Below, piece after piece: positions 6,120 to 45,620 of a stretch of DNA of 64,000 nucleotides. How positions within the stretch are numbered: the stretch's first letter is position 1; each line of letters starts with the position of its first letter. The notes under the pieces were generated by a model. It was not told the origin of the DNA, did no database searches, and saw only the letters and a program-made list of their open reading frames with translations. The stretch is from Halichondria panicea (Eukaryota > Porifera > Demospongiae > Suberitida > Halichondriidae): assembly GCF_963675165.1 (NCBI RefSeq), contig NC_087382.1, positions 3,883,963 through 3,947,962 of the forward strand, in the 5' to 3' direction. A program made the translations under genes and the position numbers.

Positions 6120-6833
6120 ATGAAGACAGCCATTGCTCTGATAGCACTGATCTCCCTCACCGGCAGTCTGGTGTGGGCCGCACCAAATCAGCAACAGCAA
6201 CAAGTACAGGACATTCAAGAAATCCTGGGAAATGCTCGAGACACAACAGAGCAAGACGAGGATGATGTAGACCTCCAGTCGCTACTGGCAGCTGCTCAAG
6301 ACGATGATGGCAATGATGACGATGTAAAAGAATTGCAGTCACTTATCGCCAGCGAACAAGATGAAGATGAAGATGAAGATATGTCAGCACTCAACTCCCT
6401 GATGGCTGCTGCACAAGATGACGACAATGGAGATGACGAGGATGAGAATATGAAAGCTCTGACATCGCTAAGTGCAGCTGCTGAAAACGATGAAGACGAC
6501 CAGCTATCTGAGACAGCTGCTATCACTCAAAGATCCCGAAAAAGGCCAAGGAGAAATAGAAAGCGAAGGAGTTATATAAAATACTATAGAGGGCGAAGGA
6601 GATATAGAGGACGAAACTTGGCCCGCTATTACCAGCGTTATTACAATCAGCTTTACAAGAGGTATTACAACAATTATTACGCTCGATATTACAAGCAACA
6701 TTACAACAGGCAGTATCGAGGAATTAAATCGTATGGTAATTACGGATTTAGAGTGATTAATCATGTGTACAAGTACATGAAGAGTCACTACCCCAAAGTG
6801 TATCGCAAGTACTTGTACTACAACAAGGGATAA
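6120..6833 (+). CDS. Secreted Tyr/Arg-array precursor (MKTAIAL type)
   Basis: Single-exon gene, 237 aa. Residues 1-20 form a signal peptide followed by Ala-Pro. Residues 23-135 are very acidic and contain repeated helix-like modules (LQSLLAAAQ, LQSLIASEQ, ALNSLMAAAQ) separated by Asp/Glu runs. From about 137 the charge flips: an Arg/Lys stretch (137-166) and eight tetrapeptides of the form x-x-[YLHQ]-Y (168-199, e.g. ARYY, QRYY). A conserved tail follows, GIKSYGNYGF..INHVY.YMKSHYP..YRKYL, ending YYNKG. The final Gly would fit C-terminal amidation. I do not recognise the family. The prepro/cationic layout resembles host-defence peptide precursors such as Hydra arminins; a Tyr-rich structural, cross-linking or silica-binding protein is the alternative. 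The start is fixed by the TATA box and by identity with the paralogues at 9754 and 24061. Confidence 0.85.
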   Translation: MKTAIALIALISLTGSLVWAAPNQQQQQVQDIQEILGNARDTTEQDEDDVDLQSLLAAAQDDDGNDDDVKELQSLIASEQDEDEDEDMSALNSLMAAAQDDDNGDDEDENMKALTSLSAAAENDEDDQLSETAAITQRSRKRPRRNRKRRSYIKYYRGRRRYRGRNLARYYQRYYNQLYKRYYNNYYARYYKQHYNRQYRGIKSYGNYGFRVINHVYKYMKSHYPKVYRKYLYYNKG

Positions 6834-8464
6834 ACTTCATGCAGCAGCTGCAGATACAAACTTGAAGTAGCTTATGTATAGAGTCAGACTGAACAGAATT
6901 GATAGAGCACTGAAGTGCTAAACTTTCGTAGTTTCATGCCTCGTATAAAAATTTGAACAATTAAAATGTGAGTATGAAAAAATTGGCTGTACTATAATAA
7001 TTATATAGGGAGCGTGCATGTGACACCGTATATATAATATAATTATAGCCTCGAATACTCCATAATCTCAGGTACAAATCTATTTTAATGGCTCACAAGA
7101 CAAAACAAATAATTTCTTCTATGCATGCACACAAGCCCTCCGCCTATAAGATGTAATTTGATAGCATAATTTAATGTCAGAATGGAATACAACATAAATA
7201 AGGATGCATTGGTATCGATTTGTGAATGAGTATACCATAATTATAATGGTCAGTATAACTATACCTGTGAATTCCAGAGCAAAAGCAGATGTGCCTTTAC
7301 ATTTCATACAACATGCATTGGTAGGAAACTCATGCATGCATGTATACATGCATGCACTATAATTATAAGTTTACCCCTATAAAGTATATAATTATAACAA
7401 TCAGCCTATAATAGAAAATTTAAGCTTCGATTGTAAAAGGTACACCTCGACATTATATTCAATATCAAAGGTGGTTCACATAATTATAGGCAAAAAAGCA
7501 CAGCGTATATCACATGGACGCAGCTAGATGGAGGTTGTTTTCTGAACCATATATATAATGAAGAGCACTATTGAAATCAGAGTTCGTTATTTCATGCATG
7601 CTGCAGCACTTAATGAAAGCACCGCAGGTGCTGATGCCTCGGTGGAGATGCAAAGCTACATAACATAAAGCTGCTACTAATAGCTTTTATGCACATGATA
7701 AAAACAATTTAATTTTGCTGCATGCAAAAACTCAGAGAGTGGGTAATGATCCACCATGATTGTTGTTAAAACGATCTATGCCAAAAGTTCAAGTCTAAAA
7801 TTAATGGCTGCCATCAGCAGAGCCTTGCAGCTCTCTTCTCACTCTTGCAGCTACCAATAGCTAGCGTTCTAGTGCAGAGCTAACTACTAAGTAGAGTAGC
7901 AACACTCGGTAAACAAGTTTGGCTACGTGCTCTTCTAAAAAGGCTGCAATGGCATTCCAAGTAAGCAAAACTAGGCATAACTCGAGAATGAAGCATTATT
8001 TTGCAAATCCACGAATTAAAATCCAAGTAAACATGACTAGAAGCCTATAGAAACTCTTACTTGCACTTGATTCATCCTTGAGCAGCTGTAGCAGTCTACA
8101 CACACAGACAGACAGACACACACACAGACACACAGACACACAGACACAGACACACTACCGTATACCTCGCTTGCGCATGCGCACCGAGGCATAATTTGAA
8201 CAGTAAACAGAACCACATGCATTGAACCATGCAATGCTGCAATTATCTCATAGCTGACACAACCTGACATTTCACACAATAACTCTTGTATTACAATTAT
8301 CTCATAGCTGACACATGACATTTCACGCAATAACTCTTGTATTACAGGATTGAATGATTCCCGTAAAAACTGGAATAGACAGCAAGTTTATACATGATTC
8401 AGCATACTGCATAACATAACTTAGGGCATGCACGCATGTTGCATTTTATTTTCTACTCTACAAG
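6834..8464. other. Intergenic, decayed promoter and interspersed repeat
   Basis: No gene seen. 7270-7365 resembles the MKTAIAL-type promoter tract but lacks a clean TATA box, so it is probably a promoter relic. 7590-8170 is a repeat whose second copy lies at 21600-22220. It ends in a (CACAGA)n microsatellite (8098-8153) and a CGCTTGCGCATGCGC motif. A short direct duplication lies at 8215-8345. Confidence 0.5.
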
Positions 8465-8465
8465 A

Positions 8466-8550
8466 GAATATCTGGCAGGTTTGGGAGAAAGTCTGGCAGG
8501 TTCGGGAGAAGGTCTGGAAGAAGGATTGTGAGAAGGAGATACTGGCCTGG
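8466..8550 (+). pseudogene. Truncated 3' relic of the 9754-type gene
   Basis: The frame starting at GGCAGG reads GRFGRKSGRFGRRSGRRIVR then RRYWPGQQF and stop, matching the last residues of the 9754 gene (GRRIVRRRYWPGQQ). The 3' flank to about 8850 also matches 10450-10735. Signal peptide, propeptide and promoter are absent, so this is the tail of an old duplicate. Confidence 0.75.
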
Positions 8551-8883
8551 ACAACAGTTTTAAATTGGCTGAGCTTAAATCAACTGCATGAAAAACTGAG
8601 TCGTAGAAAAACTGTGTCTGTTCAGTGTAGCACTGAATAGTTAGCTATATAATAAAATGAATCACTAATCAGAGTGAATCATATTAAATTAGTGTTGTTT
8701 AACATGTTATGGAGATCAAAAGATTGGTATATACATGCAAAATAAGCGTAATTAATGGTGCATGAGCATTATTTAGTAGCTATGGCTACGTCTTATTTGC
8801 ATGCATATAGGTTTGTACTTGTAGATATAATAATAGGCACTATACTCTATAAATTGTAGCCAGTACAAGGTTGAGCTGTATGC

Positions 8884-9702: not shown

Positions 9703-9753
9703 TATAAAAGTGATCAACTTAGAAACAGAAATAAGGAACAACGTTGTTTCAAA
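9703..9753 (+). promoter_or_regulatory. Core promoter of the 9754 gene
   Basis: TATAAAAG at 9703-9710 is followed by the same GTGATCAACTTAGAAACAGA block as at 6064 and 23998. The ATG is about 50 bp downstream. The upstream tract from about 9290 is homologous to 5580-6060. Confidence 0.75.
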
Positions 9754-10461
9754 ATGAAGACAGCCATTGCTCTGATAGCATTGATCTCTCTCACCGGCAT
9801 TCTGGTGTGGGCCGCACCAAATCAGCAACAAGTACAGGACATTCAAGAAATTCTGGGAAATGCTCATGATGTAACAAAGCATGACGAGGATGAAGTTGAC
9901 AAAGAGGATGCTGAAATGGAAACTTTCATTCAAGATCTGATGTCTGCCCACAAACAAGATGGGGCACAAGTCGAGGACTTCCTCCATAAACTCATGAATG
10001 AAGAGGAGGAAACAGCTTCCGAACAAAAAAGCAATGATGATGATGATGACGACGATGTTGTAGACAACCAGAGCAGCGATCTCGACGAAGTTCAAAGTGA
10101 CAATGACGACGAATTGGAGGCTGCGGTCCAAGAGCTTATACAAGATGACGATAGATCTAACGATGATAGTGATTTGGATGTTGCTGCTCTTCAAGAGCTG
10201 ATCGCCAAGTCACAAGACCCAGATGTTAAAGCTCAATTTTGGGGGGCTATTGCTCGTCTCGGGACGCGGCTAATCAGCAGGGTTGGGAGACGGTTTGGGA
10301 GAAAGTTCAGGAGAACGTCTAACAAGTTTGGGAGAAGGTCCAGGAGGTCCAGGAGAAGGCTTAGCAGGTCCAGGAGAAGGCCTAGCACGTCCAGGAGAAG
10401 GTATGGAAGAAGGATTGTGAGAAGGAGATACTGGCCTGGACAACAAATCAACCAGTGTTAA
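9754..10461 (+). CDS. Secreted acidic-pro, Arg/Ser-rich cationic precursor
   Basis: Single exon, 235 aa. The ATG at 9754 is chosen over upstream in-frame codons because it lies just below the TATA box and begins the family signal peptide MKTAIALIALISLTG (1-20, then AP). Residues 21-155 are Asp/Glu-rich and include modules such as AAVQELIQDD and VAALQELIAKSQDP. The junction SQDPDVKAQFW (153-163) parallels KQDPTTAKMQW in the 26763 gene. From Q161 comes a Gly/Arg amphipathic segment (AIARLGTRLISRVGRRFGRK) and then an RS-repeat tail like a protamine or SR domain, ending PGQQINQC. It shares its prepro region with the Tyr/Arg genes but has a wholly different mature part and no terminal Gly. The single Cys is the last residue. 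Function unknown; DNA/RNA binding, antimicrobial action or mineral binding are all possible. Confidence 0.85.
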   Translation: MKTAIALIALISLTGILVWAAPNQQQVQDIQEILGNAHDVTKHDEDEVDKEDAEMETFIQDLMSAHKQDGAQVEDFLHKLMNEEEETASEQKSNDDDDDDDVVDNQSSDLDEVQSDNDDELEAAVQELIQDDDRSNDDSDLDVAALQELIAKSQDPDVKAQFWGAIARLGTRLISRVGRRFGRKFRRTSNKFGRRSRRSRRRLSRSRRRPSTSRRRYGRRIVRRRYWPGQQINQC

Positions 10462-11867: not shown

Positions 11868-12260
11868 TCAGCGGCCCCAAACGCGAACAGCTTTCTTCAC
11901 ACCACCCCATACTTTACGGCCGATTCGGTGTCTCTTCCACCAGCCCCATTGAGCATGAGCAGTCGTACCAGGAGTTTGGATGTCTGCCATAAACTTCATT
12001 AACTGAGCTTTCGTATTTTCGTCATCTCCTTCGTCCTGTTCCATATTAGCCAGCATCGACTGTAGGCTTGCCAAGTCAGCCGGCGAATCATCTTCATCTT
12101 GAATGTTTCGCATCAGAGCTTTTTTGAGAGCAGCTTGAACTTCTTCACTTTCCATAGCTTGCTCGATTACTTTCTGCATCTCAACTTCGTTTCCTCTAGG
12201 AGCTGCATACATGTAGCAGACCAGTGTAGCAAGGATTGTCACGGTGAACACAGCCTTCAT
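11868..12260 (-). CDS. Trp-rich cationic peptide precursor (W family)
   Basis: Single exon on the minus strand, 130 aa. The start at 12260 matches the conserved start of three paralogues (13225, 18190, 20774). Residues 1-19 are a signal peptide (MKAVFTVTILATLVCYMYA), then APRGNE. Residues 24-97 are acidic (EQAMESEEVQAALKKAL; IQDEDDSPADLASLQSML; EQDEGDD). The junction IQTPGTTAHAQW (94-105) leads to a 27-residue basic peptide, Q104-R130, with Trp at 105, 107, 108, 118 and 128 and nine Lys/Arg but no acidic residue. It ends in Gly-Arg, so removal of Arg and amidation would leave a Trp-amide. This resembles linear amphipathic antimicrobial peptides; activity is inferred. AATAAA on the minus strand lies at about 11758-11763. 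Confidence 0.88.
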   Translation of the reverse strand: MKAVFTVTILATLVCYMYAAPRGNEVEMQKVIEQAMESEEVQAALKKALMRNIQDEDDSPADLASLQSMLANMEQDEGDDENTKAQLMKFMADIQTPGTTAHAQWGWWKRHRIGRKVWGGVKKAVRVWGR

Positions 12261-13224: not shown

Positions 13225-13623
13225 ATGAATACTGTGTTCACCGTGACAATCCTCGCTATACTGGTCTGCTACATGTATGCAGCTCCTAGAGCGGGAAACG
13301 AAAATGAAATGCAGAAAGTAATTGAGCAAGCTATGGAGAGTGAAGAAGTTCAAGCTGCTCTCAAACAAGCACTGATGCAGGGAAGCATTCAAGATGAAGA
13401 TGATTCGCCGGCTGACTTGGCAAGCCTACAGTCGATGCTGGCTAATATGGAACAGAATGAGGGAGATGACGAAAATACGAAAGCTCAGTTAATAAAGTTA
13501 ATGGCGGACATCCAAACTCCTGGTACGACTGCTCATGCTCAATGGAAGTGGTGGAAGAAACACCGAATCGGCCACAAAATCTGGCGTGGTGTGAAGAAAA
13601 CTGTTAGTTGGATTGGCCGTTGA
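13225..13623 (+). CDS. Trp-rich cationic peptide precursor (W family)
   Basis: Single exon, 132 aa. The start at 13225 is the family start (GAGAATGAAT context) and lies about 95 bp below the W promoter box at 13120-13141. It has a signal peptide (1-19) and APRAGN, an acidic pro-region (26-96), the junction TPGTTAHAQW, and a 27-residue basic C-terminus Q106-R132 with Trp at 107, 109, 110, 120 and 129, ending Trp-Ile-Gly-Arg. It is head to head with the paralogue at 12260, with about 965 bp between start codons. AATAAA at 13757-13762 is the likely poly(A) signal. Its 3' coding end and 3' flank reappear in the chimeric gene at 41243-41677. Confidence 0.88.
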   Translation: MNTVFTVTILAILVCYMYAAPRAGNENEMQKVIEQAMESEEVQAALKQALMQGSIQDEDDSPADLASLQSMLANMEQNEGDDENTKAQLIKLMADIQTPGTTAHAQWKWWKKHRIGHKIWRGVKKTVSWIGR

Positions 13624-17436: not shown

Positions 17437-17610
17437 TGGAGATGACGAAAATACGAAAGCTCGTTTATGGCAGACATGCTAACTTCTGGTACGACTGATG
17501 CATGAAACTGATACATGAAATTACAAACTCAGTAAAATGTATATTGCAGCTGGGAACACGAGCAACAAAAGTTTTTGGAGCATTATCAAAATCGCAATTT
17601 TGAAACTAAT
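17437..17610 (+). pseudogene. Mosaic relic of W-family and long-polycation genes
   Basis: GGAGATGACGAAAATACGAA matches the W-family codons for GDDENTKA, and the tract runs through a deleted version of the TPGTT junction. Further on, AAAGTTTTTGGAGCATTATC matches codons for KVFGTLSK in the 18886 gene. The same mosaic recurs at 40364-40500 and 42138-42300, so it was already rearranged before those duplications. Confidence 0.65.
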
Positions 17611-17803
17611 AAAAGTTCTTATATAATATATATACACTGACTCAGCATACTGCATAACAAACCATAAATGCACTTTCATTGGCATGTTGCACTTTTTTCT
17701 ACAAAATAATGATTGTGGCTACAGCTATAAGTTACTTACTCTATAACGATAACTTCTTTGTCTACTATACATTGTTCAAATTCAGTCAGTCAGTTGAAAC
17801 AGT

Positions 17804-18190
17804 TCAACGGCCCCAAATCCTCTTTACACCACGCCAGACTTTGTGGCCGATTCGGTGTTTCTTCCACCAGCGCCATTGAGCATGAGCAGTCGTACCAGGA
17901 GTTTGGATGTTCGCCATAAACTTCATTAACTGAGCTTTCGTATTTTCGTCATCTCCTCCGTTCTGTTCCATATTAGCCAGCATCGACTGTAGGCTTGCCA
18001 AGTCAGCTGGAGAATCATCTTCATCTTGAATGCTTCCCTGCATTAGAGCTTGTTTGAGAGCAGCTTGAACTTCTTCACTCTCCATAGCTTGCTCGATTAC
18101 TTTCTGCATCTCGACTTCATTTCCTCTAGGAGCTGCATACATGTAGCAGACCAGTGTAGCGAGGATTGTCACAGTGAACACAGCCTTCAT
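17804..18190 (-). CDS. Trp-rich cationic peptide precursor (W family)
   Basis: Single exon on the minus strand, 128 aa, started at 18190 by family alignment. Signal peptide 1-19; acidic region 24-97 with IQDEDDSPADLASLQSML; junction TPGTTAHAQW. The basic end is the shortest of the family, 24 residues (Q105-R128), because three residues near the end are missing relative to the 20774 paralogue. It carries four Trp early or mid-peptide, one near the end, nine Lys/Arg, and ends Trp-Gly-Arg. It is divergent from the 18886 gene; the ~700 bp between them hold a tandem repeat array. Confidence 0.88.
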   Translation of the reverse strand: MKAVFTVTILATLVCYMYAAPRGNEVEMQKVIEQAMESEEVQAALKQALMQGSIQDEDDSPADLASLQSMLANMEQNGGDDENTKAQLMKFMANIQTPGTTAHAQWRWWKKHRIGHKVWRGVKRIWGR

Positions 18191-18885: not shown

Positions 18886-20376
18886 ATGAAGCTCACACTG
18901 CTATTGCTATTGGTGGGTATTTCCAACTTATGTGTCAGTGCACAATCTTCTTCTGCGGAGAGTGGCATTTCGAAAAGCTTTGATCAGCAACGAAATGAGT
19001 TAGAGCCAACGGATCAAGATGAAGAGGAGCTTGCACAAGCTTTATCTTCTCTCTTGACACAAACACAGGAATACGGAGATGCTCAAGGAATTGGTGATGA
19101 GGATGTGGAAACTTTGAATGCTCTCGCTGAAATGCAGGATGAAGAATTGGAGCAAGCCTTGACTAACGCAATTGCTGATGATGATGGTGCATTCATCACT
19201 GCACTTAAGGATGTACAAAAAAAACATGGCGATGAAAATGCAAGCATACAAGATTCTGACACACCAAGCAAAGAATGGCATTCTCTGATTAACGTGATTG
19301 TAAAGACTGAAGATGAGGATGGCCGCCTAAGTAAGCAAGGACCTCACCAACTTGAAAGAGAAAGAAGAGAAGCAACAGAAGGTGGTTTCACTAACAAACT
19401 TACCGAAACTCAAAATGAAAATGATGATACAAGCATGAATGCTGAGCTTGAGAAAATAGAGCAAGACAAAGTGAGGGACAAGGAAGCTTTGCAAGTGTTA
19501 GCAAATGCTCTTGCAGAAGTACAGCAAGTAGACCAAACAGAGCAAGAACTTGAAAATGAACTAGCTTCTATTCAGTACAGCAACGAGGATGATGGAAATA
19601 TTCAAGATGGTAAACTGATTAATGAAGCTATGATGGAAAAACTCTCTGCAAAAGATGATAATACTCAAAGTCAAGACCACGATGAAGATATACAAGCAGT
19701 TTCGAATGAGCACATGCCCTCCAAGCAGGCAGCCGCAATTCAAAGAGATGAAAACGCAGCCAAGGTAGTCTCAAAATTATATTCAACGGCTAAGGTACAA
19801 TGGAGACGTCGTAGACGATGGCGACGCCCAACAAGAATCATTCGAAGATCTATCCGCAGAATTGTAAGGGTCGTTCGAAAACCAATTCGCAAAATTTCAA
19901 GGGTAATTCGAAAAGTTCGCCGCATTCGTAAACTAAAAAGAATAATTCGAAAAGCTATTAAAAAGATTCAACCTAAACGCCTAATCCGCCGGATATCAAA
20001 AGTTATCCGAAAGAGTCACCCCAAGAAAGTTTTTGGAACATTATCAAAATTGCTTAAAATGTTGAAACCAAAAACAAGCTTCTTGAAAAAGCTCATTGCA
20101 AAAGCAGGAAAATTGCTCAAGAAGGCTGTTAAGTATCCCAAGAAACTCGGCTCAAAGGCACTTCAGTACGTATTGGGCTTACTTGGTAAAGGAAAAGAAG
20201 TTACTAGCATCAAAAACAGTTCAGGAGGAAGTACAGGTGATAAAAATGGGAAATCGGGAACAAGGAGTAAAGGAAGAGGATCTTGGCTGACAAAGCTCAC
20301 TGAAAATGATGGCAACAGTTTCTTGAAGAAAATGATTGTCGTTATCAAAAAGTATGGGCGTAAACGAAAAGGATGA
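18886..20376 (+). CDS. Large secreted precursor with ~190-residue polycationic domain
   Basis: Single exon, 496 aa. The ATG at 18886 follows a TATA box and starts a clear signal peptide (MKLTLLLLLVGISNLCVSA). Residues 20-298 are Asp/Glu/Gln-rich with family-style modules (EELAQALSSLLTQTQ, LEQALTNAIADDD, LQVLANALAEVQQ). The junction LYSTAKVQW (298-306) parallels TTAKMQW of the 26763 gene. From Q305 the protein is almost solid Arg/Lys with Ile/Val/Leu every three to four residues (RIIRRSIRRIVRVVRKPIRK, then KRIIRKAIKKIQPKRLIRRI), shifting to Lys/Leu helices (380-435), a Gly/Ser spacer (445-466) and a last segment ending KYGRKRKG. Several potential dibasic sites could yield multiple peptides. 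No paralogue except the relic at about 17570. Function unknown; membrane-active or polyanion-binding helices are likely. Confidence 0.85.
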   Translation: MKLTLLLLLVGISNLCVSAQSSSAESGISKSFDQQRNELEPTDQDEEELAQALSSLLTQTQEYGDAQGIGDEDVETLNALAEMQDEELEQALTNAIADDDGAFITALKDVQKKHGDENASIQDSDTPSKEWHSLINVIVKTEDEDGRLSKQGPHQLERERREATEGGFTNKLTETQNENDDTSMNAELEKIEQDKVRDKEALQVLANALAEVQQVDQTEQELENELASIQYSNEDDGNIQDGKLINEAMMEKLSAKDDNTQSQDHDEDIQAVSNEHMPSKQAAAIQRDENAAKVVSKLYSTAKVQWRRRRRWRRPTRIIRRSIRRIVRVVRKPIRKISRVIRKVRRIRKLKRIIRKAIKKIQPKRLIRRISKVIRKSHPKKVFGTLSKLLKMLKPKTSFLKKLIAKAGKLLKKAVKYPKKLGSKALQYVLGLLGKGKEVTSIKNSSGGSTGDKNGKSGTRSKGRGSWLTKLTENDGNSFLKKMIVVIKKYGRKRKG

Positions 20377-20773: not shown

Positions 20774-21169
20774 ATGAATACTGTGTTCACCGTGACAATC
20801 CTCGCTACATTGGTCTGCTACATGTATGCAGCTCCTAGAGGAAACGAAGTCAAGATACAGAAAGTAATCGAGCAAGCTATGGAGAGTGAGGAAATTCAAG
20901 CTGCTCTCAAACAAGCTCTGATGCAGGGAAGCATTCAAGATGAAGATGATTCGCCGGCTGACTTGGCAAGCCTACAGTCGATGCTGGCTAATATGGAACA
21001 AGATGAAGGAGATGACGAAAATACGAAAGCTCAGTTAATGAAGTTTATGGCAGACATCCAAACTCCTGGTACGACTGCTCATGCTCAATGGGGCTGGTGG
21101 AAGAGACACCGAATTGGCCGCAAAGTCTGGGGTGGTGTGAAGAAAGCTGTTCGCATTTGGGGCCGCTGA
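20774..21169 (+). CDS. Trp-rich cationic peptide precursor (W family)
   Basis: Single exon, 131 aa, nearly identical to the 12260 gene. Signal peptide 1-19, APRGNE, acidic pro-region with EQAMESEEIQAALKQAL and EQDEGDDENTKAQLM, junction TPGTTAHAQW, and 27-residue basic peptide Q105-R131 with five Trp, ending Ile-Trp-Gly-Arg. The mature part differs from the 12260 copy by one conservative Val/Ile change, while other paralogues differ more. This suggests recent duplication or gene conversion. AATAAA at 21276-21281. Confidence 0.88.
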   Translation: MNTVFTVTILATLVCYMYAAPRGNEVKIQKVIEQAMESEEIQAALKQALMQGSIQDEDDSPADLASLQSMLANMEQDEGDDENTKAQLMKFMADIQTPGTTAHAQWGWWKRHRIGRKVWGGVKKAVRIWGR

Positions 21170-22260: not shown

Positions 22261-22589
22261 CACGGCGGTTCCAGGCCGCCCTCGAATCAAAGATGGTAAA
22301 CAATCTAATGTGCAGTAACTCCGTGGTTAATGAAGATAAAACATAAGCAGCATTCTCTAGAATTATTATATATATCAATCTACATTGTGTATCAATATGT
22401 TCAGTCTAATAGTATGCACAAATCTACTCAACTTTATGTGCAGACTGCAGCTAACATGTACATGCACTTGAAAGCTTATCGCTTGAATTTGATATCACTG
22501 TACTTCTTGTACATGTAGGGGCAGTTCCTATTCCACGTAGCGGTGGACAAAATTCAGCATCTATAGTGAAAGTTACCATATGCTTTTAC

Positions 22590-22868
22590 TCCTTTATACC
22601 AACTTGCTGTAATAGTTCTAAGTAATAGTGCCGCTTGTAATATTCCTCATAATAGCGCTTGTAATAATTTATAGCAATGACACAACCAACTGCTTTTGAA
22701 GCGTATTGGCCTTTTAATAATGGATGACACATGTTGACTGTCTTGTATAGACTAGTAGTTTTTATTGTTTTGAGCTAGTGACATCAGAGGTTTTGGTGCG
22801 GCCCACACTATAGGCTGCTGGTGGTGAGGGAGAGATCAATGCTACTAGAGTAATGGCTGTCTTATGAG
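22590..22868 (-). pseudogene. Broken Tyr/Arg-array gene
   Basis: On the minus strand the start codon region reads CATAAGACAGCCATTACTCT instead of ATGAAGACAGCC. It is followed by degraded signal-peptide codons up to GTGTGGGCCGCACC, then by YYKRYYEEYYKRHYYLELL. The acidic pro-region and the C-terminal domain are deleted and the ATG is lost. Confidence 0.75.
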
Positions 22869-24060: not shown

Positions 24061-24798
24061 ATGAAGACAGCCATTGCTCTAATAGCACTGATCTCCCTCA
24101 CCGGCAGCCTGGTGTGGGCCGCACCAAATCAGCAACAGCAACAAGTACAGAACATTGAAGAAATCTTGGGAAAGAAACATCAAAATGCAGTCAAGCAAAA
24201 CGAGGATGATGTAGACCTCCAGTCGCTACTGGCAGCTGCTCAAGACGACGACGACAACGATTATGATGCAAAAAAATTTCAATCATTTATCGCTAGCGTA
24301 CAAGATGAAGATGAAGATATGCCAGCACTCAACTCCCTGATGGCTGCTGCACAAGATGACGACAATGGAGATGATGAAGATATGTCAGCACTCAACTCTC
24401 TAATGGCTGCTACACAAGATGACGACAATGGAGATGATGAGGATGAGAATATGAAAGCTCTGACATCGCTAAGTGCAGCTGCTGAAAACGAGGAAGACAA
24501 CCAGCTATCTGAGACAGCTGCTAATACTCAAAGATCCCGAAGAAGGCGAAGGAGATGTAGAAGGCGAAATTGGGCTCGCTATTACCAACGTTATTACCAA
24601 CGTTATTACATTCAGCTTTACAAGAGGCATTACAACAATTATTACGCTCGATATTACAAGCGACATTACAACAGGCAGTATCAAGGAATTAAATCATATG
24701 GTAATTCCGGATTTAGAATGCTGAAGCATGTGTACCACTACATGAAGAGTCACTACCCCAACATGTATCGCAACTACCTGTACTACAACAGGGGATAA
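24061..24798 (+). CDS. Secreted Tyr/Arg-array precursor (MKTAIAL type)
   Basis: Single exon, 245 aa, closest to the 6120 gene. Signal peptide 1-20 and AP; acidic region 24-155 with an extra copy of the DMSALNSLMAA(A/T)QDDDNGDDE module (87-126), which accounts for most of the length gain. The basic part starts about 157 with an Arg run broken by one Cys (about 166). Nine tetrapeptides follow (172-207), then the conserved tail (GIKSYGN to YRNYLYY) ending NRG. The lone Cys is absent from the 6120 copy. A terminal Gly is retained. Confidence 0.85.
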   Translation: MKTAIALIALISLTGSLVWAAPNQQQQQVQNIEEILGKKHQNAVKQNEDDVDLQSLLAAAQDDDDNDYDAKKFQSFIASVQDEDEDMPALNSLMAAAQDDDNGDDEDMSALNSLMAATQDDDNGDDEDENMKALTSLSAAAENEEDNQLSETAANTQRSRRRRRRCRRRNWARYYQRYYQRYYIQLYKRHYNNYYARYYKRHYNRQYQGIKSYGNSGFRMLKHVYHYMKSHYPNMYRNYLYYNRG

Positions 24799-26762: not shown

Positions 26763-27203
26763 ATGAAGCTGGTTCTCATACTCACGTTGTTTGCCCTCAC
26801 AGCCAGTGTGGCTTACACAGCCCCACAAGAGGAAGCGAACGATGAAGAAGATGGTGATGCTGAAGTGGAAGCCATGCTTGAGAAACTACTGGGACAAGAA
26901 ATGGCCGAAGAACAAGATCAGAATGGAGACGATGACAGTGACGATGACAACGACGGTCAAATTCAGGCACTCCTCTCTCAAATGCAAGACGGTGACGATG
27001 AAGAAAAAGCAGTGGCTGTTTTACAAGAGCTGTTTGCCGACAAACAAGACCCTACAACTGCCAAGATGCAATGGAGGAGGTGGAGGAGGAGGTTCAGAGT
27101 GAGAAGAATTTTTAGGAAGGTTGGCAGGTTCGTAAAGAAACACGCTCCAAAGCTTTTAAATGCTGGAAAGAAGATACTGCTTGGAGGATGCGGCAAAAAA
27201 TGA
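26763..27203 (+). CDS. Secreted acidic-pro, Arg/Lys amphipathic peptide precursor
   Basis: Single exon, 146 aa. Signal peptide MKLVLILTLFALTASVAYTA, then PQEEANDEEDGD. The acidic region (22-95) has two modules (GQIQALLSQMQDGDDEE; VAVLQELFADKQDP). Junction QDPTTAKMQW (95-104) leads to a 44-residue peptide from Q103. Its first half is rich in Arg, Trp and Phe (WRRWRRRFRVRRIFRKVGRF) and its second half is a Lys/Leu helix. It ends LLGGCGKK, so trimming of Lys-Lys and amidation at Gly would leave a C-terminal Cys-amide. The single Cys could form a dimer. It resembles cathelicidin- or cecropin-like linear peptides in composition only. Single copy here; relic flanks after 43914 show it was once duplicated. 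Confidence 0.87.
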   Translation: MKLVLILTLFALTASVAYTAPQEEANDEEDGDAEVEAMLEKLLGQEMAEEQDQNGDDDSDDDNDGQIQALLSQMQDGDDEEKAVAVLQELFADKQDPTTAKMQWRRWRRRFRVRRIFRKVGRFVKKHAPKLLNAGKKILLGGCGKK

Positions 27204-27791: not shown

Positions 27792-28229
27792 ATGAAGACA
27801 TTTCTCCTCCTAGCAACCTTGGCCTGTATCATTGGCCTGGGGCTATCAGCTCCCAGCACTGCTCAGAATGAAATTGAAATACAAAATCTCCGTTCAATGC
27901 TCGAGAAAGCCACCAAGCAAGAGGACGATATTGACATTCAGAATATCGACGATGTCGAGGGAGGTGTGGAGAACCTAGATTCTATCCTAGCTGAGATGCA
28001 AGATTTCCCGGATGATGAACAGATGAACGCTCAGCTGCACGATATGGCAGCTAACAAGCAAGCACCAGCCACAGCACAATTACGAGTCACCTATAAGAGG
28101 CTGTACAGGAGGGCTCGTACTTTTGGAAACTTAGAATACCGAATGCTGAATGCTATCACCAACTATGTCAAGAGGTACCAGGGAACAATGAATTCTTATT
28201 ACCGCTACCTCAGCAAATACAGCGGATAG
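27792..28229 (+). CDS. Short Tyr/Arg secreted precursor (MKTFLLL type)
   Basis: Single exon, 145 aa. The ATG at 27792 is the first one; an upstream in-frame TTG is not used. Signal peptide MKTFLLLATLACIIGLGLSA then PSTAQNEIEIQ. The acidic middle (26-85) has EDDIDIQNIDDVEGGVENLD and SILAEMQDF. Junction KQAPATAQ leads to a basic Tyr-rich end (Q96-G145). Its YRRARTFGNLEYRMLNAITN..YVKRY......YYRYLSKYSG aligns with the C-terminal domain of the Tyr/Arg-array genes (FKGAKSYGNYGF.VINHVY.YMKSHY....YRKYLHYRG), so the two families share an origin although this one lacks the tetrapeptide array. Ends in Gly. Confidence 0.87.
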   Translation: MKTFLLLATLACIIGLGLSAPSTAQNEIEIQNLRSMLEKATKQEDDIDIQNIDDVEGGVENLDSILAEMQDFPDDEQMNAQLHDMAANKQAPATAQLRVTYKRLYRRARTFGNLEYRMLNAITNYVKRYQGTMNSYYRYLSKYSG

Positions 28230-31842: not shown

Positions 31843-32084
31843 ATAAAGACATTTCTCCTCCTAGCAACCTTTGCCTGCATCATTGGCCTGGGACTATCAG
31901 CTCCCAGCACTGCTCAGAATGAAATTGAAATACAAAACCTTCGTTCAATGCTCGAGAAAGTCACCAAGCAAGAGGACGATATTGACATTCAGAATATCGA
32001 CAATGTCGAGGGAGGTGTGGAGAATCTAGATTCTATCCTAGCTGAGATGCAAGAAATCCCGGATGATAAACATATTATCCAGTA
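31843..32084 (+). pseudogene. MKTFLLL-type gene without start codon or mature peptide
   Basis: Codons for KTFLLLATFACIIGLGLSAP through SILAEMQEIPDD are intact and in frame, but the ATG is ATA and the promoter is replaced by an (AAAAT)n run. A deletion joins the end of the pro-region straight to the old 3' flank (TATTATCCAGTAACATAG, as at 28370), removing the whole basic peptide. Confidence 0.85.
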
Positions 32085-35670: not shown

Positions 35671-36507
35671 ATGTTGAAGATGAAGGCCGCCATTGCCCTA
35701 GTAGCACTGGTGTACCTCACAAGCAGCCTGGTGTGGGCTGCACCAAATGAAGAATCAATAGACATACAAAGGTTCAACGATGCTCTTGAGAATGCTCTCA
35801 GTCAAGAATCCTCACAAATACCACCCGATGGCACCAAGATCGATAATCAAGATGCGGTCGAACAAAATGACGATGATGATATAGACTTGCAGTCGCTAAT
35901 GGCAGCTGCTCAAGGTGATGATAATAATGATGATGAAAATATGAAAGCTCTGAGGTCGCTAATGGCGGCTGAGCAAAACGAAGAATCGGAGAATAAACTG
36001 GTTGCTAACAAACAAGAAGATGATGAAGATATGAAAGCTTTCAATTCGCTAATGGCTGCTGCACAAGATGGCGCTGATGACGATGAAAATGTACGTGCTC
36101 TAAAGTCGGTATTTGCAGCTACTCAAGAAGAGGATAGTGAAACACAGCTGGTTGGAAATAGTGAGGAAACTGCTAAAACTGCCTGGTGGCGTCGCAAACG
36201 TCACAGGCGTAGGAGGTCGAAGTCAGCTGCTTACTATAAACGATACTACAGTCGTTACTATAGTAACTATTACAGCAAGTATTACAGTCGTTACTACAGT
36301 AACTATTACAGCAAGTATTACAAGCGATACTATGCTAGGTACTACAGCAGGTATTACTCTCGCTACTACAATCGATACTACAGCAAAAAGTTGCAAGGAG
36401 CAAAATCGTACGGTAATTACGAATTTGGAGTGTTTAATCATGTGTACAGGTACATGAAGAGTCACTACCCCAGCATGTATCGCAAGTACTTGCACTACCG
36501 GGGATGA
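35671..36507 (+). CDS. Secreted Tyr/Arg-array precursor (MKAAIAL type)
   Basis: Single exon, 278 aa from the first ATG (35671, MLKMKAAIAL) or 275 from the second (35680), which matches the 25487 start. Signal peptide, then APNEESIDIQRFNDALENAL. The acidic region has four modules (LQSLMAAAQ, ALRSLMAAEQ, AFNSLMAAAQ, ALKSVFAATQ). The junction ETAKTAWWRRKRHRRRRSKS is followed by thirteen tetrapeptides (AAYY, KRYY, SRYY, SNYY, SKYY...) and the conserved tail LQGAKSYGNYEFGVFNHVYR to YRKYLHYRG. The G-to-E change in SYGNYEF is shared with the relics at 40770 and 42600. Ends in Gly. Transcription probably starts from the TATAAATA at 35605 in the last unit of the promoter array. Confidence 0.85.
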   Translation: MLKMKAAIALVALVYLTSSLVWAAPNEESIDIQRFNDALENALSQESSQIPPDGTKIDNQDAVEQNDDDDIDLQSLMAAAQGDDNNDDENMKALRSLMAAEQNEESENKLVANKQEDDEDMKAFNSLMAAAQDGADDDENVRALKSVFAATQEEDSETQLVGNSEETAKTAWWRRKRHRRRRSKSAAYYKRYYSRYYSNYYSKYYSRYYSNYYSKYYKRYYARYYSRYYSRYYNRYYSKKLQGAKSYGNYEFGVFNHVYRYMKSHYPSMYRKYLHYRG

Positions 36508-36999: not shown

Positions 37000-37331
37000 T
37001 GAAGACATCATTGGCCTGGGGCGCTATCAGCTCCCAACACTACTCAGAATGAAATTGAAAACAAAACTATCGTTTAATGCTCGAGAAAGCCATCAAGCAA
37101 ATGGACAGACCCGATAACTTGCAAAATGTTGATATGTATGCAAGACAAAGTTGATGAAGGTATATTGAGGAGTCAATAATGTTCACACTACTCAGAATGA
37201 AATTGAAAACAAAACTATCGTTTAATGCTCGAGAAAGCCATCAAGCAAATGGACAGACCCGATAACTTGCAAAATGTCGATATGTATGCAAGACAAAGTT
37301 GATGAAGGTATATTGAGGAGTCAATAATGTT
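37000..37331 (+). pseudogene. Broken MKTFLLL-type gene with internal tandem duplication
   Basis: GAAGACATCATTGGCCTGGG shows loss of most signal-peptide codons. Fragments matching CTCAGAATGAAATTGAAA, TGCTCGAGAAAGCCA and TGCAAAATGTCGATATG follow. A 156-bp segment (from 37038) is repeated in tandem from 37194. A decayed promoter lies just upstream. It sits between the 35671 gene and the FReD pseudogene. Confidence 0.75.
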
Positions 37332-37684
37332 CTTAAGATACACGTTATACTCTTTCCATCAGCACAAGAGTATAATTTTTCAAGTGTGTTAAACAACATG
37401 GTGGTTGTTTGTATACTATCACTTTTCTCGTTCACAGACAAAAGACGTTAAAATCAAATGGCATTATGTTACATGTATGTATACACTATAACTATATCAT
37501 GCAGAGCAGTGTATTTTCTCAAAATAATCACTCAACTTATGGAGGTAGCTAAATTATATAAATTGTGAGACAGTTTTTTGGTGATAATTATACTATTGTA
37601 TAAAATCGTTTTTCACACAAATAATAGCTGTGAATACAATTTGCAAGGCATACAATCAAATAATCAATAGTCTAAGTCATTCTG

Positions 37685-40363: not shown

Positions 40364-40500
40364 AGCTCGTTTATGGCAGACATGTTAACTTCTGGTACAA
40401 CTGATGCATGAAACTGATACAAACTCAGTGAAATGTATATTGCAGCTGGGAACACGAGCAACAAAAGTTTTCGGAGCATTATCAAAATCGCGAAACTAAA
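40364..40500 (+). pseudogene. W-family / long-polycation mosaic relic
   Basis: AAAGCTCGTTTATGGCAGAC and ACTTCTGGTAC match the same rearranged tract as 17450-17600, including AGTTTTCGGAGCATTATC. Confidence 0.6.
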
Positions 40501-40635
40501 AAAAGTTCTTGTATACACTGACTCAGCTTACTGCATAACAAACCATAAATGCACTTAATTGGCATGTTGAACTTTTTTCTACAAAATGATGGTTGTGGCT
40601 ATACTGTACAGTTATATTCTATAAAATAAATTATG

Positions 40636-40901
40636 ACAACTATACAGTAGTTACTATAGTAACAAGTATTACAAGGGATATTACAGCAGTTGATATTATG
40701 CTGCATGGATACTACAAAAACATTACTCTCGCTATAAAAATTATACTACAATCGATACTACAGCAAAAAGTTGCAAGGAGCAAATCGTACGGTAATTACG
40801 AATTTGGAGTGTTTAATCATGTGTACAGGTACATGAAGAGTCACTATCCCAGCATGTATCACTGCATGGTACGTGATGTGCGTAGTCGAAAGTATCGTTA
40901 A
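40636..40901 (+). pseudogene. Tyr/Arg-array gene, C-terminal relic
   Basis: Tetrapeptide codons (TACTATAGTAACAAGTATTA) decay into stops. Then AGTTGCAAGGAGCAAATCGT (one A lost) and codons for YEFGVFNHVYRYMKSHYPSM match the 35671 gene tail before the frame runs into unrelated DNA at about 40865. Confidence 0.75.
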
Positions 40902-41242: not shown

Positions 41243-41677
41243 ATGTTAAAGATGAAGGCCGCTATTGCCCTAGTAGCACTGGTCTCCCTCACAGGCAGCC
41301 TGGTGTGGGCCGCACCTAATGAAAAATCAATAGACATACAAAGGTTCAACGATGCTCTTGAGAATGCCCTCAGTCAAGAAGCCCCACAAATGCCACCCGA
41401 CGGCACCAAGATCGATAATCAAGATGCGATCGAACAAGATGACGATGATGATATAGACTTGCAGTCACTACTGGCAGCTGCTCAAAGTGATGATGATGAT
41501 TATGAAGATATGAAAGCTCTGAGATTACTAATGATGGCAGCTGAGCAAAATAAAGAATCAGACCTGAAATCTGGTACGGCTGCTCATGCTCAATGGAAGT
41601 GGTGGAAGAAACACCGAATCGGCCACAAAGTCTGGCGTGGTGTGAAGAAAGCTGCTCGTCATTGGATTGGCCGTTGA
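41243..41677 (+). CDS. Chimeric precursor: Tyr/Arg-family prepro with Trp-rich mature peptide
   Basis: Single exon, 144 aa, open throughout. Residues 1-107 are the MKAAIAL-family signal peptide and acidic region (APNEKSIDIQRFNDALENAL, QSLLAAAQSDDDDYEDMKAL). At about residue 108 the sequence switches to the W family: SGTAAHAQWKWWKKHRIGHK, continuing to R144 with Trp at 118, 120, 121, 131 and 141 and ending Trp-Ile-Gly-Arg. DNA after the switch, including the stop and 3' flank (GAGAAGTAGAGTAGACAGAA), matches the 13225 gene. The crossover lies within or just before CTGGTACGGCTGCTCATGCT, the conserved junction. The promoter and start are those of the 43042 gene. It looks functional: no stops, intact signal peptide, intact GR end. 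Confidence 0.9.
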   Translation: MLKMKAAIALVALVSLTGSLVWAAPNEKSIDIQRFNDALENALSQEAPQMPPDGTKIDNQDAIEQDDDDDIDLQSLLAAAQSDDDDYEDMKALRLLMMAAEQNKESDLKSGTAAHAQWKWWKKHRIGHKVWRGVKKAARHWIGR

Positions 41678-42137
41678 GGAACTGAGAAGTAGAGTAGACA
41701 GAAGTGAACTCAATTAGATTTGTGCGTATATATAGCATATCGATATACGTCTTGTGTTTGTTATATAGAGATTAAATTTAGGATTCGTATAAGCAAGTCT
41801 CCAAACAATGTTCAGGGAACTACAATAATTGACTTTTATGATGAAAGTGAAAGTTATTAACTTGACTTGCTCTACAAACTTGTAATACTTATAGTCTTAG
41901 TACTATATACATTGCCTATTAAAGGGAGGCAGTGCATGCCTTTTCAGAGTCTTCTTGCACTGCATGGTACTACCGTTGCGCCCCTTTAGGTCATAAAACT
42001 AGGATCACAATACGCCCTAATAAATTATGCTGAGAATAATCTTATATAGGTATCTAAAGAAATAATTGGCGAACACTGCATGGCATCACTGCAAACACTG
42101 GGGCATGATCTAACTTGATATGGAAAACTTTAAGATG

Positions 42138-42300
42138 GAGGTGACGAAAATACGAAAGCTCGTTTATGGCAGACATGCTAACTTCTGGTACGACTGATGC
42201 ATGAAACTGATACATGAAATGTATATTGCAGCTGGGAACACGAGCAACAAAAGTTTTTGGAGTATTATCAAAATCGCGAAACTAAAAAAAGTTCTTGTAT
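42138..42300 (+). pseudogene. W-family / long-polycation mosaic relic
   Basis: GACGAAAATACGAAAGCTCG matches the W pro-region; TTTTTGGAGTATTATCAAAA matches the 18886-type codons. Collinear with 17437-17610. Confidence 0.65.
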
Positions 42301-42418
42301 ACACTGACTCAGCTTACTGCATAACAAACCATAAATGTACTTAATTGGCATGTTGAACTTTTTTCTACAAAATGATGATTGTGGCTATACTGTACAGTTA
42401 TATTCTATAAAATAAATT

Positions 42419-42700
42419 ATGACAACTATACAGTAGTAGTTACTACAGTAACTATTACAGCAAGTATTACAAGGGATATTACAGCAGTTGATATTTTATG
42501 CTGCATGGATACTACAAAAATATTACTCTCGCTATAAAAATTATACTACAATCGATACTACAGCAAAAAGTTGCAAGGAGCAAAATCGTACGGTAATTAC
42601 GAATTTGGAGTGTTCAATCATGTGTACAGGTACATGAAGAGTCACTACCCCAGCATGTATCACTGCAAGGTACGTGATGTGCGTAGTCGAAAGTATCGTT
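42419..42700 (+). pseudogene. Tyr/Arg-array gene, C-terminal relic
   Basis: Second copy of the 40636 relic, slightly less decayed: AACTATTACAGCAAGTATTA, then GCAAAATCGTACGGTAATTA and codons for EFGVFNHVYRYMKSHYPSMY before the break at about 42665. Confidence 0.75.
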
Positions 42701-43041
42701 AAAAATGCCAGGAATGTACGAGTTTTCTCGCTTGTAGGTATTGTCTCATTAACCATAATTATTTTAGATACACCTAGAAATTAACTTGAGGGAACTATCG
42801 GATTAGCCCAAGCTGCTTCGAATGCCACCACTAGTCAGTAAACAATCATGAGCAGCATTCAGTTGAGACAGCTGTCACAAAGTGTGTATGTGCACTAAAG
42901 GAGGAAATGATTATATACAATGTTTGGCTGCATGGCTATAAATAAAGACGCTCAGGTTATTCGATAAGTTAAGCATCCTACAAGAAAGAAACATACTGAC
43001 TATTACAATAAGGCACAACAGTTCTATAGTGCTACACTGAG

Positions 43042-43914
43042 ATGTTAAAGATGAAGGCCGCTATTGCCCTAGTAGCGCTGGTCTCCCTCACAGGCAGCCT
43101 GGTGTGGGCCGCACCAAACGAAGAATCAATAGACATACAAAGGTTCAACGATGCCCTTGAGAATGCCCTCAGTCAAGACGACACCAACATTGATAATCAA
43201 GATGCGGTTGAACAAGATGACGATGATGATATAGACTTGCAGTCGCTAATGACAGCTGCTCAAAGTGATGATGATGATGATGAAAATATGAAAGCTCTGA
43301 GATCGCTAATGGCAGCTGAGCAAGATGAAAAATTGGAAAATAAACTAAAATCTAACGAACAAGATGACGACGAAGATATGAAAGCTTTCAATTCACTAAT
43401 GGCTGCTGCACAAGATGGAAATGACGATGATGAAAATGTACGTGCTCTCAGTCTGAATTCACTATTTGCAGCTACTCAAGACGATGATGTTGACACACAG
43501 CTGGTTGGAAAAGATAAAGAAACTGCTAAAACTGCCTGGTGGCGTCGTAGACGTAGGCGGCGTCGTAGACGTAGGAGGTCGAATTCAGCTGCTTACTATA
43601 AACAATACTACAGTCGTTACTATAGTAACTACTACAGCAAGTATTACAAGCAATACTACGCTAGGTACTACAGCAAGTATTACAATCAACACTACGCTAG
43701 GTACTACAGCAAGTATTACAAGCAACACTACGCTAGGTACTACAGCAAGTATTACTCTCGCTACTACAAACGATACTACAGCAGAAAGTTTAAAGGAGCA
43801 AAATCGTACGGTAATTACGGATTTAGCGTGATTAATCATGTGTACAGCTACATGAAGAGTCACTACCCCAACATGTATCGCAAGTACTTGCACTACCGTA
43901 GAATTCAGGGATGA
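43042..43914 (+). CDS. Secreted Tyr/Arg-array precursor, longest array
   Basis: Single exon, 290 aa from MLK at 43042 (family start MKAAIAL nine bases later). Signal peptide, APNEESIDIQRFNDALENAL, acidic region with four modules. Junction ETAKTAWW is followed by twelve consecutive Arg (168-179), whose codons are a tandem duplication of CGTCGTAGACGTAGG. Then come sixteen tetrapeptides (183-246, e.g. KQYY, SRYY, SNYY, ARYY, NQHY) and the tail FKGAKSYGNYGFSVINHVYS to YRKYLHYRRIQG. It has the most repeats of the five intact array genes (8, 9, 11, 13, 16). The array is also a 12-bp DNA minisatellite, so length change by unequal exchange is likely. Ends in Gly. Confidence 0.87.
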   Translation: MLKMKAAIALVALVSLTGSLVWAAPNEESIDIQRFNDALENALSQDDTNIDNQDAVEQDDDDDIDLQSLMTAAQSDDDDDENMKALRSLMAAEQDEKLENKLKSNEQDDDEDMKAFNSLMAAAQDGNDDDENVRALSLNSLFAATQDDDVDTQLVGKDKETAKTAWWRRRRRRRRRRRRSNSAAYYKQYYSRYYSNYYSKYYKQYYARYYSKYYNQHYARYYSKYYKQHYARYYSKYYSRYYKRYYSRKFKGAKSYGNYGFSVINHVYSYMKSHYPNMYRKYLHYRRIQG

Positions 43915-45104
43915 GTGAACCGATGAAAAGAACTCAGAGACTTAATTGTGTATAGTGGAGATGATAGTTAGAACAAACATTTAGTGTGATTTAGTCGTAT
44001 ATGGAACAACATGTAGCAAAGTTGGTAGGTACATTTGAGTAGCTATAGCTGTATTAGTTGTATTCAAATAACTGGCTGTATGCAGTTTACGTCTACATCA
44101 TTGCAATGTACACGTGTGTGCATGGGGGTGGATTATTCTAACCACAAAGCATGCAAACATTCACTAACTATCAGTACCCCAAAATGAAACCAGATGTTAG
44201 ATTTAGTATTTTGTTTTTGAACTGATAGTGTAGTAATGTGCATAGTGTTTACTTTTAGTTGTGTTAATTAACTCATGTCCTGTGGTTAACTTTACTTCCT
44301 GTATTGTACTTTTCTGTTATTGTGGTTTCTGTTCGTTAGTAGGTTCTTTCTGTATAGTTGTTCTTTGTTCCCTTTGTGCCTAGCTATAGGGGCCCGCTCC
44401 AGGCGGCTCTTTGTGTATGGGAGCCTCTGCTCCACTGCCTTTTGTCTTGTACATACTTATACCTTTGTTCTTGTACATTTTATCAGTTGTTGAATACGAT
44501 TTCACTAAACTCAAATGTCTGCATGAACCTGCGACATAACAGATAGTTGCCATGGGCTTATTATTATTATGTGTCGTTATAGTTTAATAGCTAGTTTGAT
44601 TATAATATACATATGCAGTATATATAGCAGTCCCTACCATTTCACATGTGGCATGCAATGTAATTAAATTAAAGCCTCCTCACAACACACAAACAACACA
44701 CAAGTGTTGCCTACTATTTCTATATAGCTATGCAACTTATAACGTACTTATAACAAAAATGTAAGAGTATTAAAGGCATATTACTTGGACGGACTAGAAA
44801 CGAAACAATGCTATTGCGCAATTACTACAAGAAATGAAAACAATCACATGCTCACATAATGTGCATGGACATAAGGATATAAGGCAAGCACCAAAGAGTA
44901 TACAGTAACTGTACATGTATATTGTTGTAATGGCTTCCGAAAGAGTAGCAATGAGCAGATGGAATCGTTTATATGAATCTACGCAACCACCCCCAACAGC
45001 AGACACTTTTGTTTTGATAATCTACATGTTTACACCAATACAAACACTAATTCGATTAGTCTAGTGCCCACACACATACACTGTAGCATTGAGGGAAACT
45101 GGTC
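43915..45104. other. Intergenic; flanks of a lost gene
   Basis: AGATTTAGTATTTTG..AACTGATAG near 44200 matches the 3' flank of the 26763 gene. 44780-45100 matches 27405-27715 upstream of the 27792 gene. A copy of the 26763-type gene was therefore probably deleted here. Nothing else coding seen. Confidence 0.55.
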
Positions 45105-45179
45105 TATAAAAGAAATCTGTTGAGACTAGCTAACTATTATCCTCAACATTGAAGACCATCCAGTAACAACTTGAAGAAA
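45105..45179 (+). promoter_or_regulatory. Core promoter of the 45180 gene
   Basis: TATAAAAG at 45105-45112 in GGTCTATAAAAGAAATCTGT, the same as upstream of 27792. Confidence 0.75.
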
Positions 45180-45620
45180 ATGAAGACATTTCTCCTCCTA
45201 GCAACTTTGGCCTGTATCATTGGCCTAGGGCTATCAGCTCCCAGCACTGCTCAGAATGAAATTGAAATACAAAACCTCCGTTCAATGCTCGAAAAAGCCA
45301 CCAAGCAAGAGGACGATATTGACATTCAGAATATCGACGATGTCGAGGGAGGTGTGGAGAACCTAGATTCTATCCTAGCTGAGATGCAAGATTTCCCGGA
45401 TGATGAACAGATGAACGCTCAGCTGCACGATATGGCAGCTAACAAGCAAGCACCAGCCACAGCAGAAAGGCGACGAATAAGATGGTACAGGCTGTACAAG
45501 AGGGCACGTAGTTTTGGAATGTTAGAATATCGAATGCTGAATGCTATCAACAACTATGTCAAGAGGTACCAGGGAACAATGAATTCTTATTATCGCTACC
45601 TCAGCAGATACAGCGGATAG
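45180..45620 (+). CDS. Short Tyr/Arg secreted precursor (MKTFLLL type)
   Basis: Single exon, 146 aa. Signal peptide and acidic region are almost identical to the 27792 gene. All notable differences fall just after the junction KQAPATA, where ERRRIRWYRLYKRARSFGML replaces QLRVTYKRLYRRARTFGNLE. The rest (YRMLNAINNYVKRYQG to YRYLSRYSG) is conserved. Change concentrated at the start of the mature peptide with a frozen prepro region is what one expects of selection on the peptide or of segment exchange. Ends in Gly. Confidence 0.87.
   Translation: MKTFLLLATLACIIGLGLSAPSTAQNEIEIQNLRSMLEKATKQEDDIDIQNIDDVEGGVENLDSILAEMQDFPDDEQMNAQLHDMAANKQAPATAERRRIRWYRLYKRARSFGMLEYRMLNAINNYVKRYQGTMNSYYRYLSRYSG

Follow-up and report, generated by a model that had tools for sequence, protein, structure and literature searches.

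A 64,000-nucleotide stretch of the genome of the sponge Halichondria panicea (hereafter the window; contig NC_087382.1, here C6, C6:3883963-3947962) carries, between window positions 6120 and 45620, a cluster of fifteen intact genes (g1 to g15) that probably encode secreted precursors of host-defence (antimicrobial) peptides, and that would represent a new sponge family. Numbers given without a contig name are window positions. The case is built from sequence: a shared leader, a split of charge between leader and payload, a C-terminal Gly, TATA boxes, two recombinant genes, one payload type resembling the sheep peptide SMAP-29, and an amidating-enzyme (PHM) exon in the host genome. Each gene is a single open reading frame whose product is hydrophobic at the N-terminus, acidic in the middle and basic towards its end. 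A charge and hydropathy filter retrieved these 15 precursors from the window and none from the 100 kb upstream or from any of 20 windows simulated with an order-1 Markov model, and a stricter version of it recovered 14 of the 15. Signal peptides were assessed from hydropathy only, and the apparent single-exon structure rests on the open frames and the nearby TATA boxes. An earlier note on this DNA had described the same plan (signal, acidic propeptide, basic C-terminus) in thirteen intact genes and at least eight relics; plan and decay are borne out, while the numbers become fifteen genes and seven relic loci (12 blastn fragments).

The family extends beyond the window

When the whole assembly (131.46 Mb, 39 contigs) was searched in six frames with g9, g4, g15, b11, b9, g6 and a protein encoded on contig C5, the family grew to at least 39 genes, 36 with a single payload and three with several units. 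These totals are lower bounds, only the best candidates having been scored. The assembly yielded no mitochondrial contig, only a COX1 fragment on C1. A second cluster of 17 precursors (b1 to b17) lies 132 kb past the first, at C6:4061911-4099406, and three more (c1 to c3) 272 kb farther along, at C6:4371635-4377852; the regions C6:3947963-4061399 and C6:4107963-4370999 were covered by six-frame searches only. One precursor, d1, is found at C4:910571-910966. The multi-unit precursors reiterate an acidic spacer and a Q-x-W cationic unit 8 times (717 amino acids (aa), C5:3164020-3166173, minus strand), 5 times (486 aa, C5:3244777-3246237, plus strand) and 2 times (245 aa, C11:135129-135866, minus strand). 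In the two C5 precursors the units of spacer and cationic helix are nearly repeated, behind a signal and Ala-Pro start like that of the window family. A genome search with b9 gave 26 matches, of which 25 belong to the C6 groups and the other is on C5; the C5 protein used as a query recovered c1, b4, b1 and b3. Two collections not meant to hold animals gave pattern matches only: g14 found six such stretches and no relative among viral contigs, and a profile of seven relatives found 100 and no relative among genome contigs.

Acidic leaders and cationic payloads share one chassis

We counted features over the 36 single-payload precursors; these genes are related, so that the tallies are not independent trials. 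Leaders hold 963 D/E and 192 K/R in 3339 residues, payloads 11 D/E and 617 K/R in 2012. We assigned payload starts by reference to a set of junction patterns that mostly contain Q, so that the D/E counts and the Q that opens 33 of the 36 assigned payloads describe the assignment rather than test it. Payloads range from 22 to 192 aa and leaders reach 283 aa. By filter and charge counts alike, the precursors thus have the signal, acidic leader and cationic payload of host-defence precursors, the layout that the earlier note had recognised.

Leaders are built on an acidic module, L-x-x-L-L-A-x-x-Q, which we scored as [LMIF][LMIFYAV][AS]xxQ. It occurs in 73 copies, against a mean of 4.0 and a maximum of 10 in 200 shuffles, and is present in 35 of 36 leaders, g6 being the only one to lack it. 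The stricter LxSLMAAxQD wording first proposed for this module holds for the tyrosine (Tyr)-type genes, the other types carrying a degenerate form; Ala-Pro follows the signal, as had been noted, in 29/36. In most genes the final module before the payload runs into A-x-x-Q and then W or GW. At the other end, 33/36 precursors close with an amidation-type C-terminus (Gly followed by at most two K/R: G, GR, GRR, GKK or similar), b17 for example ending in PGR. A TATAWA motif lies 20-160 bases before the ATG in 33/36 genes; among 714 equally sized pieces of the upstream 100 kb, 142 contain it. The three multi-unit genes also have the motif, at -50, -53 and -84.

Pairwise alignments of leaders alone and of payloads, expressed as z against 200 shuffles, link the types through their leaders (g2-b9, 19.0; g10-b4, 13.2; g10-b9, 8.6; g1-b9, 7.9; g4-g11, 6.7; g4-g10, 5.5), with the g10 leader connecting the window cluster to the second one. 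Tyr-type payloads (g1, g9, b7) match one another (z 11-20) and mostly do not match helical payloads. The alignments indicate that propeptides are homologous across types and that payloads are unrelated between Tyr and helical types. The weakest member is g6 (18886..20376, plus strand, 496 aa), with a long polycationic tail as its payload (19798-20373): its best leader z is 4.6 (b11) and its only other genome match is g10 (E=2.1e-4), and we count it in the family with reserve.

Some helical payloads resemble SMAP-29

The payload common to b3 and b4 matches sheep SMAP-29 (1FRY) at E=4.2e-6, with 15/22 identities that include the KKYGPT Gly-Pro hinge. The earlier note had recognised none of the sequences, a view to be amended in light of this payload and of three weak sub-threshold Styelin matches given below. 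With a profile built from 13 of the 36 payloads, SMAP-29 was found at E=0.005 and latarcin 2a at E=0.71, and 17/36 payloads exceed z=3 against the SMAP-29 stretch. Values are highest for b1-b5 (9.6-13.8, reached by 0 of 1000 shuffles each), followed by g10 (6.4) and by the tryptophan/lysine helical (W-type) payloads of g3, g4, g5, g7 and g13 (4.6-5.6, reached by 0-1 of 1000). SMAP-29 itself disrupts membranes, has hinges at Gly7 and Gly18/Pro19, and is haemolytic, as stated in passages of PMC9871035. The helical moment at 100 degrees exceeds that of shuffles (p<0.05, 500 each) in 23/36 payloads, and at 160 degrees in none.

The W-type genes of the window are g3 (11868..12260, minus strand, 130 aa; payload 11871-11951), g4 (13225..13623, plus, 132 aa; payload 13540-13620), g5 (17804..18190, minus, 128 aa; payload 17807-17878) and g7 (20774..21169, plus, 131 aa; payload 21086-21166), with the recombinant g13 described below. 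Also helical is g10 (26763..27203, plus, 146 aa; payload 27069-27200), which has a single Cys near its C-terminus. A lone Cys in this position recurs in several helical payloads (b9, b10, b13) and could permit dimers.

Like cathelicidins such as SMAP-29, the sponge precursors carry an N-terminal signal and neutralising leader ahead of a C-terminal cationic helical peptide. They differ in being a single open reading frame, in having no cathelin (cystatin-like) domain (PF00666, no match at E<=1 in the precursors scanned) and no cysteine frame in any of the 36 leaders. Because the likeness is confined to the payload, a SMAP-29-like payload alone does not make these genes cathelicidins, and the resemblance looks convergent. 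The Pfam scan covered 24 of the 39 precursors (23 single-payload and one multi-unit). In it, Styelin (PF17562) matched the payload start of b11, c1 and c3 at 13.0-14.5 bits, all below the cut-off of 27, and no cecropin family appeared at E<=1. Ascidian styelins share a linear cationic helix starting with GW. Their acidic propeptide lies behind the peptide, unlike the sponge leader, which precedes it. Two matches above cut-off, both restricted to leaders, were set aside as compositional: GET2 for g10 (27.8 bits, cut-off 25.5), on an acidic or helical leader only, and DUF4142 for b9 (28.1 bits, cut-off 27), which was found in no other of the 24 precursors.

Other comparisons concern layout. The passages of PMC10945409 on Hydra arminins and periculins describe a signal peptide, bipartite charge and tandem paralogue clusters, as here, together with complex Cys patterns that are missing in the sponge genes; the likeness is judged by layout and not by sequence. 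ASABF of Suberites domuncula is likewise a gene-encoded cationic defence peptide of a demosponge, as described in part of PMC3210614. ASABF has eight cysteines in four disulfides; this CS-alpha-beta frame is absent from all 36 precursors, each with 0 or 1 Cys after residue 21. Spider latarcin complex precursors and insect apidaecins are multi-peptide defence precursors with acidic spacers. The C5 precursors iterate acidic spacer and cationic unit in the same way, 8 and 5 times, and differ in their Q-x-W junction.

Tyrosine/arginine payloads allow a structural role

The Tyr/Arg-repeat genes of the window are all on the plus strand: g1 (6120..6833, 237 aa; payload assigned to 6528-6830), g8 (24061..24798, 245 aa; payload 24529-24795), g9 (25487..26362, 291 aa, with five strict modules; payload 26084-26359), g12 (35680..36507, 275 aa; payload 36184-36504) and g14 (43051..43914, 287 aa; payload 43537-43911). 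Two plus-strand genes are of a short Tyr type, g11 (27792..28229, 145 aa; payload 28077-28226) and g15 (45180..45620, 146 aa; payload 45465-45617). The YYxR repeats of the Tyr/Arg-repeat genes expand in 12-bp units, which is one reason to consider that these five genes, and perhaps g11 and g15, encode structural or mineral-binding secreted proteins on a borrowed precursor chassis. Their Tyr could be cross-linked or modified and their Arg/Lys could bind silica or matrix. Tyr-type payloads are also long (89-125 aa), not amphipathic and unrelated to the helical ones, a Tyr-type profile has no relative in the PDB, and the host appears to make silicatein: the DNA pattern of the silicatein active site occurs at two places on C2 (reversed control, 0), and a 44-aa open stretch at one of them has silicatein alpha (6zq3) as its best match (E=2.5e-12), with cathepsins at 4e-10 and weaker. 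This makes it very likely that the host is a siliceous demosponge. Yet the silicatein-like matches are on another contig, and the Tyr genes are interleaved and recombine with helical genes (in g13, promoter and leader of Tyr type precede a helical payload), sharing with them TATA position, leader and C-terminal Gly. We regard a structural role as a serious but minority possibility, and defence as holding a slight edge over an even chance for the Tyr/Arg types. For the helical types, we hold it very probable from their sequences that they are host-defence peptides acting on membranes.

Payloads have been exchanged between genes

Two precursors are recombinants at the nucleotide level. In g13 (41252..41677, plus strand, 141 aa; payload 41591-41674) the sequence from the 5' flank through signal and leader matches g14 (89.7%, 41102-41558), and the remainder with the 3' flank matches the W-type cleavage region and payload of g4 (91.1%, 41571-41714). 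The switch lies seven codons ahead of the assigned payload, and in a tree of 35 leaders g13 groups with g9, g12 and g14 (100/96) despite its W-type payload. Similarly, g2 (9754..10461, plus strand, 235 aa) matches the b7 gene over 9698-9900 (82%; Tyr-type promoter, signal and leader start) and the neighbouring b8 gene over 9895-10238 (88%); its Tyr-type start is thus joined to a b8-type leader and an Arg-rich payload (10234-10458). In both genes, payloads of another type would therefore now be driven by a Tyr-type promoter and signal. The earlier note's suspicion of tandem duplication, decay and exchange of segments is thus supported, exchange being visible in g13 and g2.

A segmental duplication of 93.4% identity (40362-41558 versus 42155-43333) carries the 5' halves of g13 and g14. 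It is recent, and preceded or accompanied the g13 payload swap.

To compare payload with leader we estimated omega and synonymous divergence (dS) from Nei-Gojobori counts. Of the 12 pairs compared that involve window genes, 11 have a higher omega in the payload than in the leader, the exception being g3/g7. For g11/g15 the leader proteins are identical (4 synonymous and 0 non-synonymous changes in 95 codons), compared to 5.5 synonymous and 14.5 non-synonymous changes in the 50 codons of the payload. The highest payload omega is 1.65 (g4/g5), and the second cluster is mixed (e.g. b10/b13: 0.11 and 0.21). Payload dS often exceeds leader dS as well, and segment exchange is thus indicated as much as selection. 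The counts are suggestive of positive selection, but with elevated payload dS and omega staying below 1 in most cases we do not claim it, and the arms race proposed in the earlier note is not demonstrated. The data fit conserved leaders with exchanged payloads.

Payloads that change fast on a constant leader would also suit toxins: peptides acting on membranes that a wounded sponge would release against its predators, epibionts or competitors. In the relevant parts of PMC3210614, sponge ASABF is both microbicidal and toxic to a gastropod, and the haemolytic activity reported for SMAP-29 (PMC9871035, in part) points the same way. But no sequence feature separates toxin from antimicrobial use, so that the two readings overlap, and the disulfide frame typical of many venom toxins is lacking (none of the 36 has more than one Cys after residue 21). 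We consider a toxin role unlikely.

Predicted processing of the precursors

On the host-defence reading, the signal peptide would route the expressed precursor into the secretory pathway, where the leader of repeated L-x-x-L-L-A-x-x-Q-D/E modules would offset the charge of the payload and keep it harmless. A protease would cut at the A-x-x-Q-(G)W junction, and the exposed N-terminal Gln could cyclise. Basic C-terminal residues would be trimmed and the C-terminal Gly converted to an amide by PHM/PAM. The freed helical peptides would then fold as amphipathic helices on membranes and kill microbes, as SMAP-29 or styelins do; Tyr/Arg-repeat payloads would use the same chassis, defence being a first guess for them too. 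New payloads would arise by duplication and by swaps of payload segments between genes.

Amidation would be available to the host, because a PHM exon is present on C7 (about 569428-569547). PF01082 located it as a sub-cut-off piece (29.2 bits) beside one over the cut-off, and 13/13 PDB matches at E<=0.1 are PAM/PHM (best 1.5e-6). Most other Cu2-monooxygenase matches look like the DBH/MOXD type. Tandem arrays of several copper-monooxygenase genes, of DBH/MOXD type by eye, occur at C1:14862957-14916655 and C12:176830-182692.

The same features recall amidated signalling peptides, neuropeptide-like or hormone-like: a possible pyro-Glu start and amidated end, a PHM, multi-copy precursors on C5, and a sponge phoenixin precursor that, in the part of PMC9004410 concerned, bears an amidation site. 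Against this, payload length is considerable (22-192 aa), the positive charge is extreme, paralogues differ in their payloads, and no short conserved peptide is flanked by dibasic sites, making a signalling role most improbable. Nor do we favour unprocessed polyampholytes, in which acidic and basic halves would stay joined and coacervate or gel within mucus or matrix. The extreme segregation of charge within one chain and the leaders of up to 283 aa would suit them, but the junction is sharp and conserved, the multi-unit precursors iterate it, and the constant C-terminal Gly would serve no use; moreover, a relic of a g11-type gene (31843..32076, plus strand) has lost exactly its payload part while its leader is still open. 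This alternative is very unlikely.

Several results weigh against the host-defence reading. The junction Q is missing in g12 and g14, where the assigned payload starts with W, and in g15, where it starts with E; g2, b8 and b12 do not close with an amidation-type C-terminus, and the C5 units finish in -DAQ and so have no terminal Gly. Thirteen of the 36 payloads are not significantly amphipathic, including 7 of 8 Tyr-type payloads (the exception is g11). PDB searches with the c1 and g10 payloads, a C5 unit and the Tyr-type profile returned no antimicrobial peptide. In the 24 precursors scanned, no Pfam family above its curated cut-off identifies them, only GET2 and DUF4142 passing, and payload omega is mostly below 1. 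Finally, a kappaB-like site was found within 400 bp upstream of 0/36 genes (background 8/249), and we hence make no claim of induction by NF-kappaB.

A candidate repertoire of sponge effectors

The combination of signal, acidic leader and cationic peptide in tandem clusters is known already, e.g. from Hydra (PMC10945409, in part). For sponges, the sections of two marine antimicrobial peptide (AMP) reviews that bear on them name Cys-rich ASABF and cyclic or depsipeptide compounds (PMC12466427, PMC10608444). Among titles and the start of abstracts in the sponge-AMP literature, a scope that leaves out most subscription papers, we found no linear helical sponge precursor. With 39 or more genes for linear cationic precursors, sponges would have an extensive set of innate effectors that is their own, including direct candidates for the control of their dense microbiome. 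The family also yields peptides ready for synthesis; a sponge peptide would clearly have converged with one from a mammalian cathelicidin, and g13 and g2 would show payload swapping mid-process.

A broader proposal, to which we give somewhat less than even odds, is a modular peptide arsenal in which one chassis for secretion, masking and processing serves unrelated payloads swapped at the leader/payload border: SMAP-29-like hinged helices, Trp/Lys helices, Arg-rich tails, Tyr/Arg repeat polymers and multi-copy helices. If true, the sponge would have a fast-evolving repertoire of gene-encoded antibiotics, convergent with a peptide of mammalian cathelicidins and perhaps involved in shaping the microbiome.

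Relics and neighbouring elements in the window

Besides the relic at 31843, the window holds a g2-type 3' half with its downstream flank (8456..8844, plus strand), a W-type leader (17438..17620, plus) with a short g6-like match at 17568-17620, a Tyr-type gene (22476..22863, minus) and a g11-type leader with a 148-bp tandem duplication (37007..37332, plus). Two sets of plus-strand fragments combine a W-type leader piece with a Tyr-type payload end (40369..40860) or a Tyr-type payload (42134..42661).

Two fibrinogen-domain (FReD) genes lie inside the cluster on the minus strand, at 29797-30483 and 37748-38564, 80.7% alike over 1334 bp within a segmental duplication. The first has an open frame of domain length, whereas open stretches in the second are shorter. 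A response of sponge FReD genes to microbial patterns is described in an experiment in part of PMC6208332, and we count the presence of such genes here in favour of host defence.

Directly upstream of g12, at 34759-35548, a 247-bp unit is repeated in tandem (3.2 copies); with 100% matches between copies, this perfect repeat is very recent. Past the cluster, a reverse-transcriptase fragment (RVT_1, E=1.1e-19; 54190-55110, minus strand) probably belongs to an element of the long interspersed nuclear element (LINE) type.

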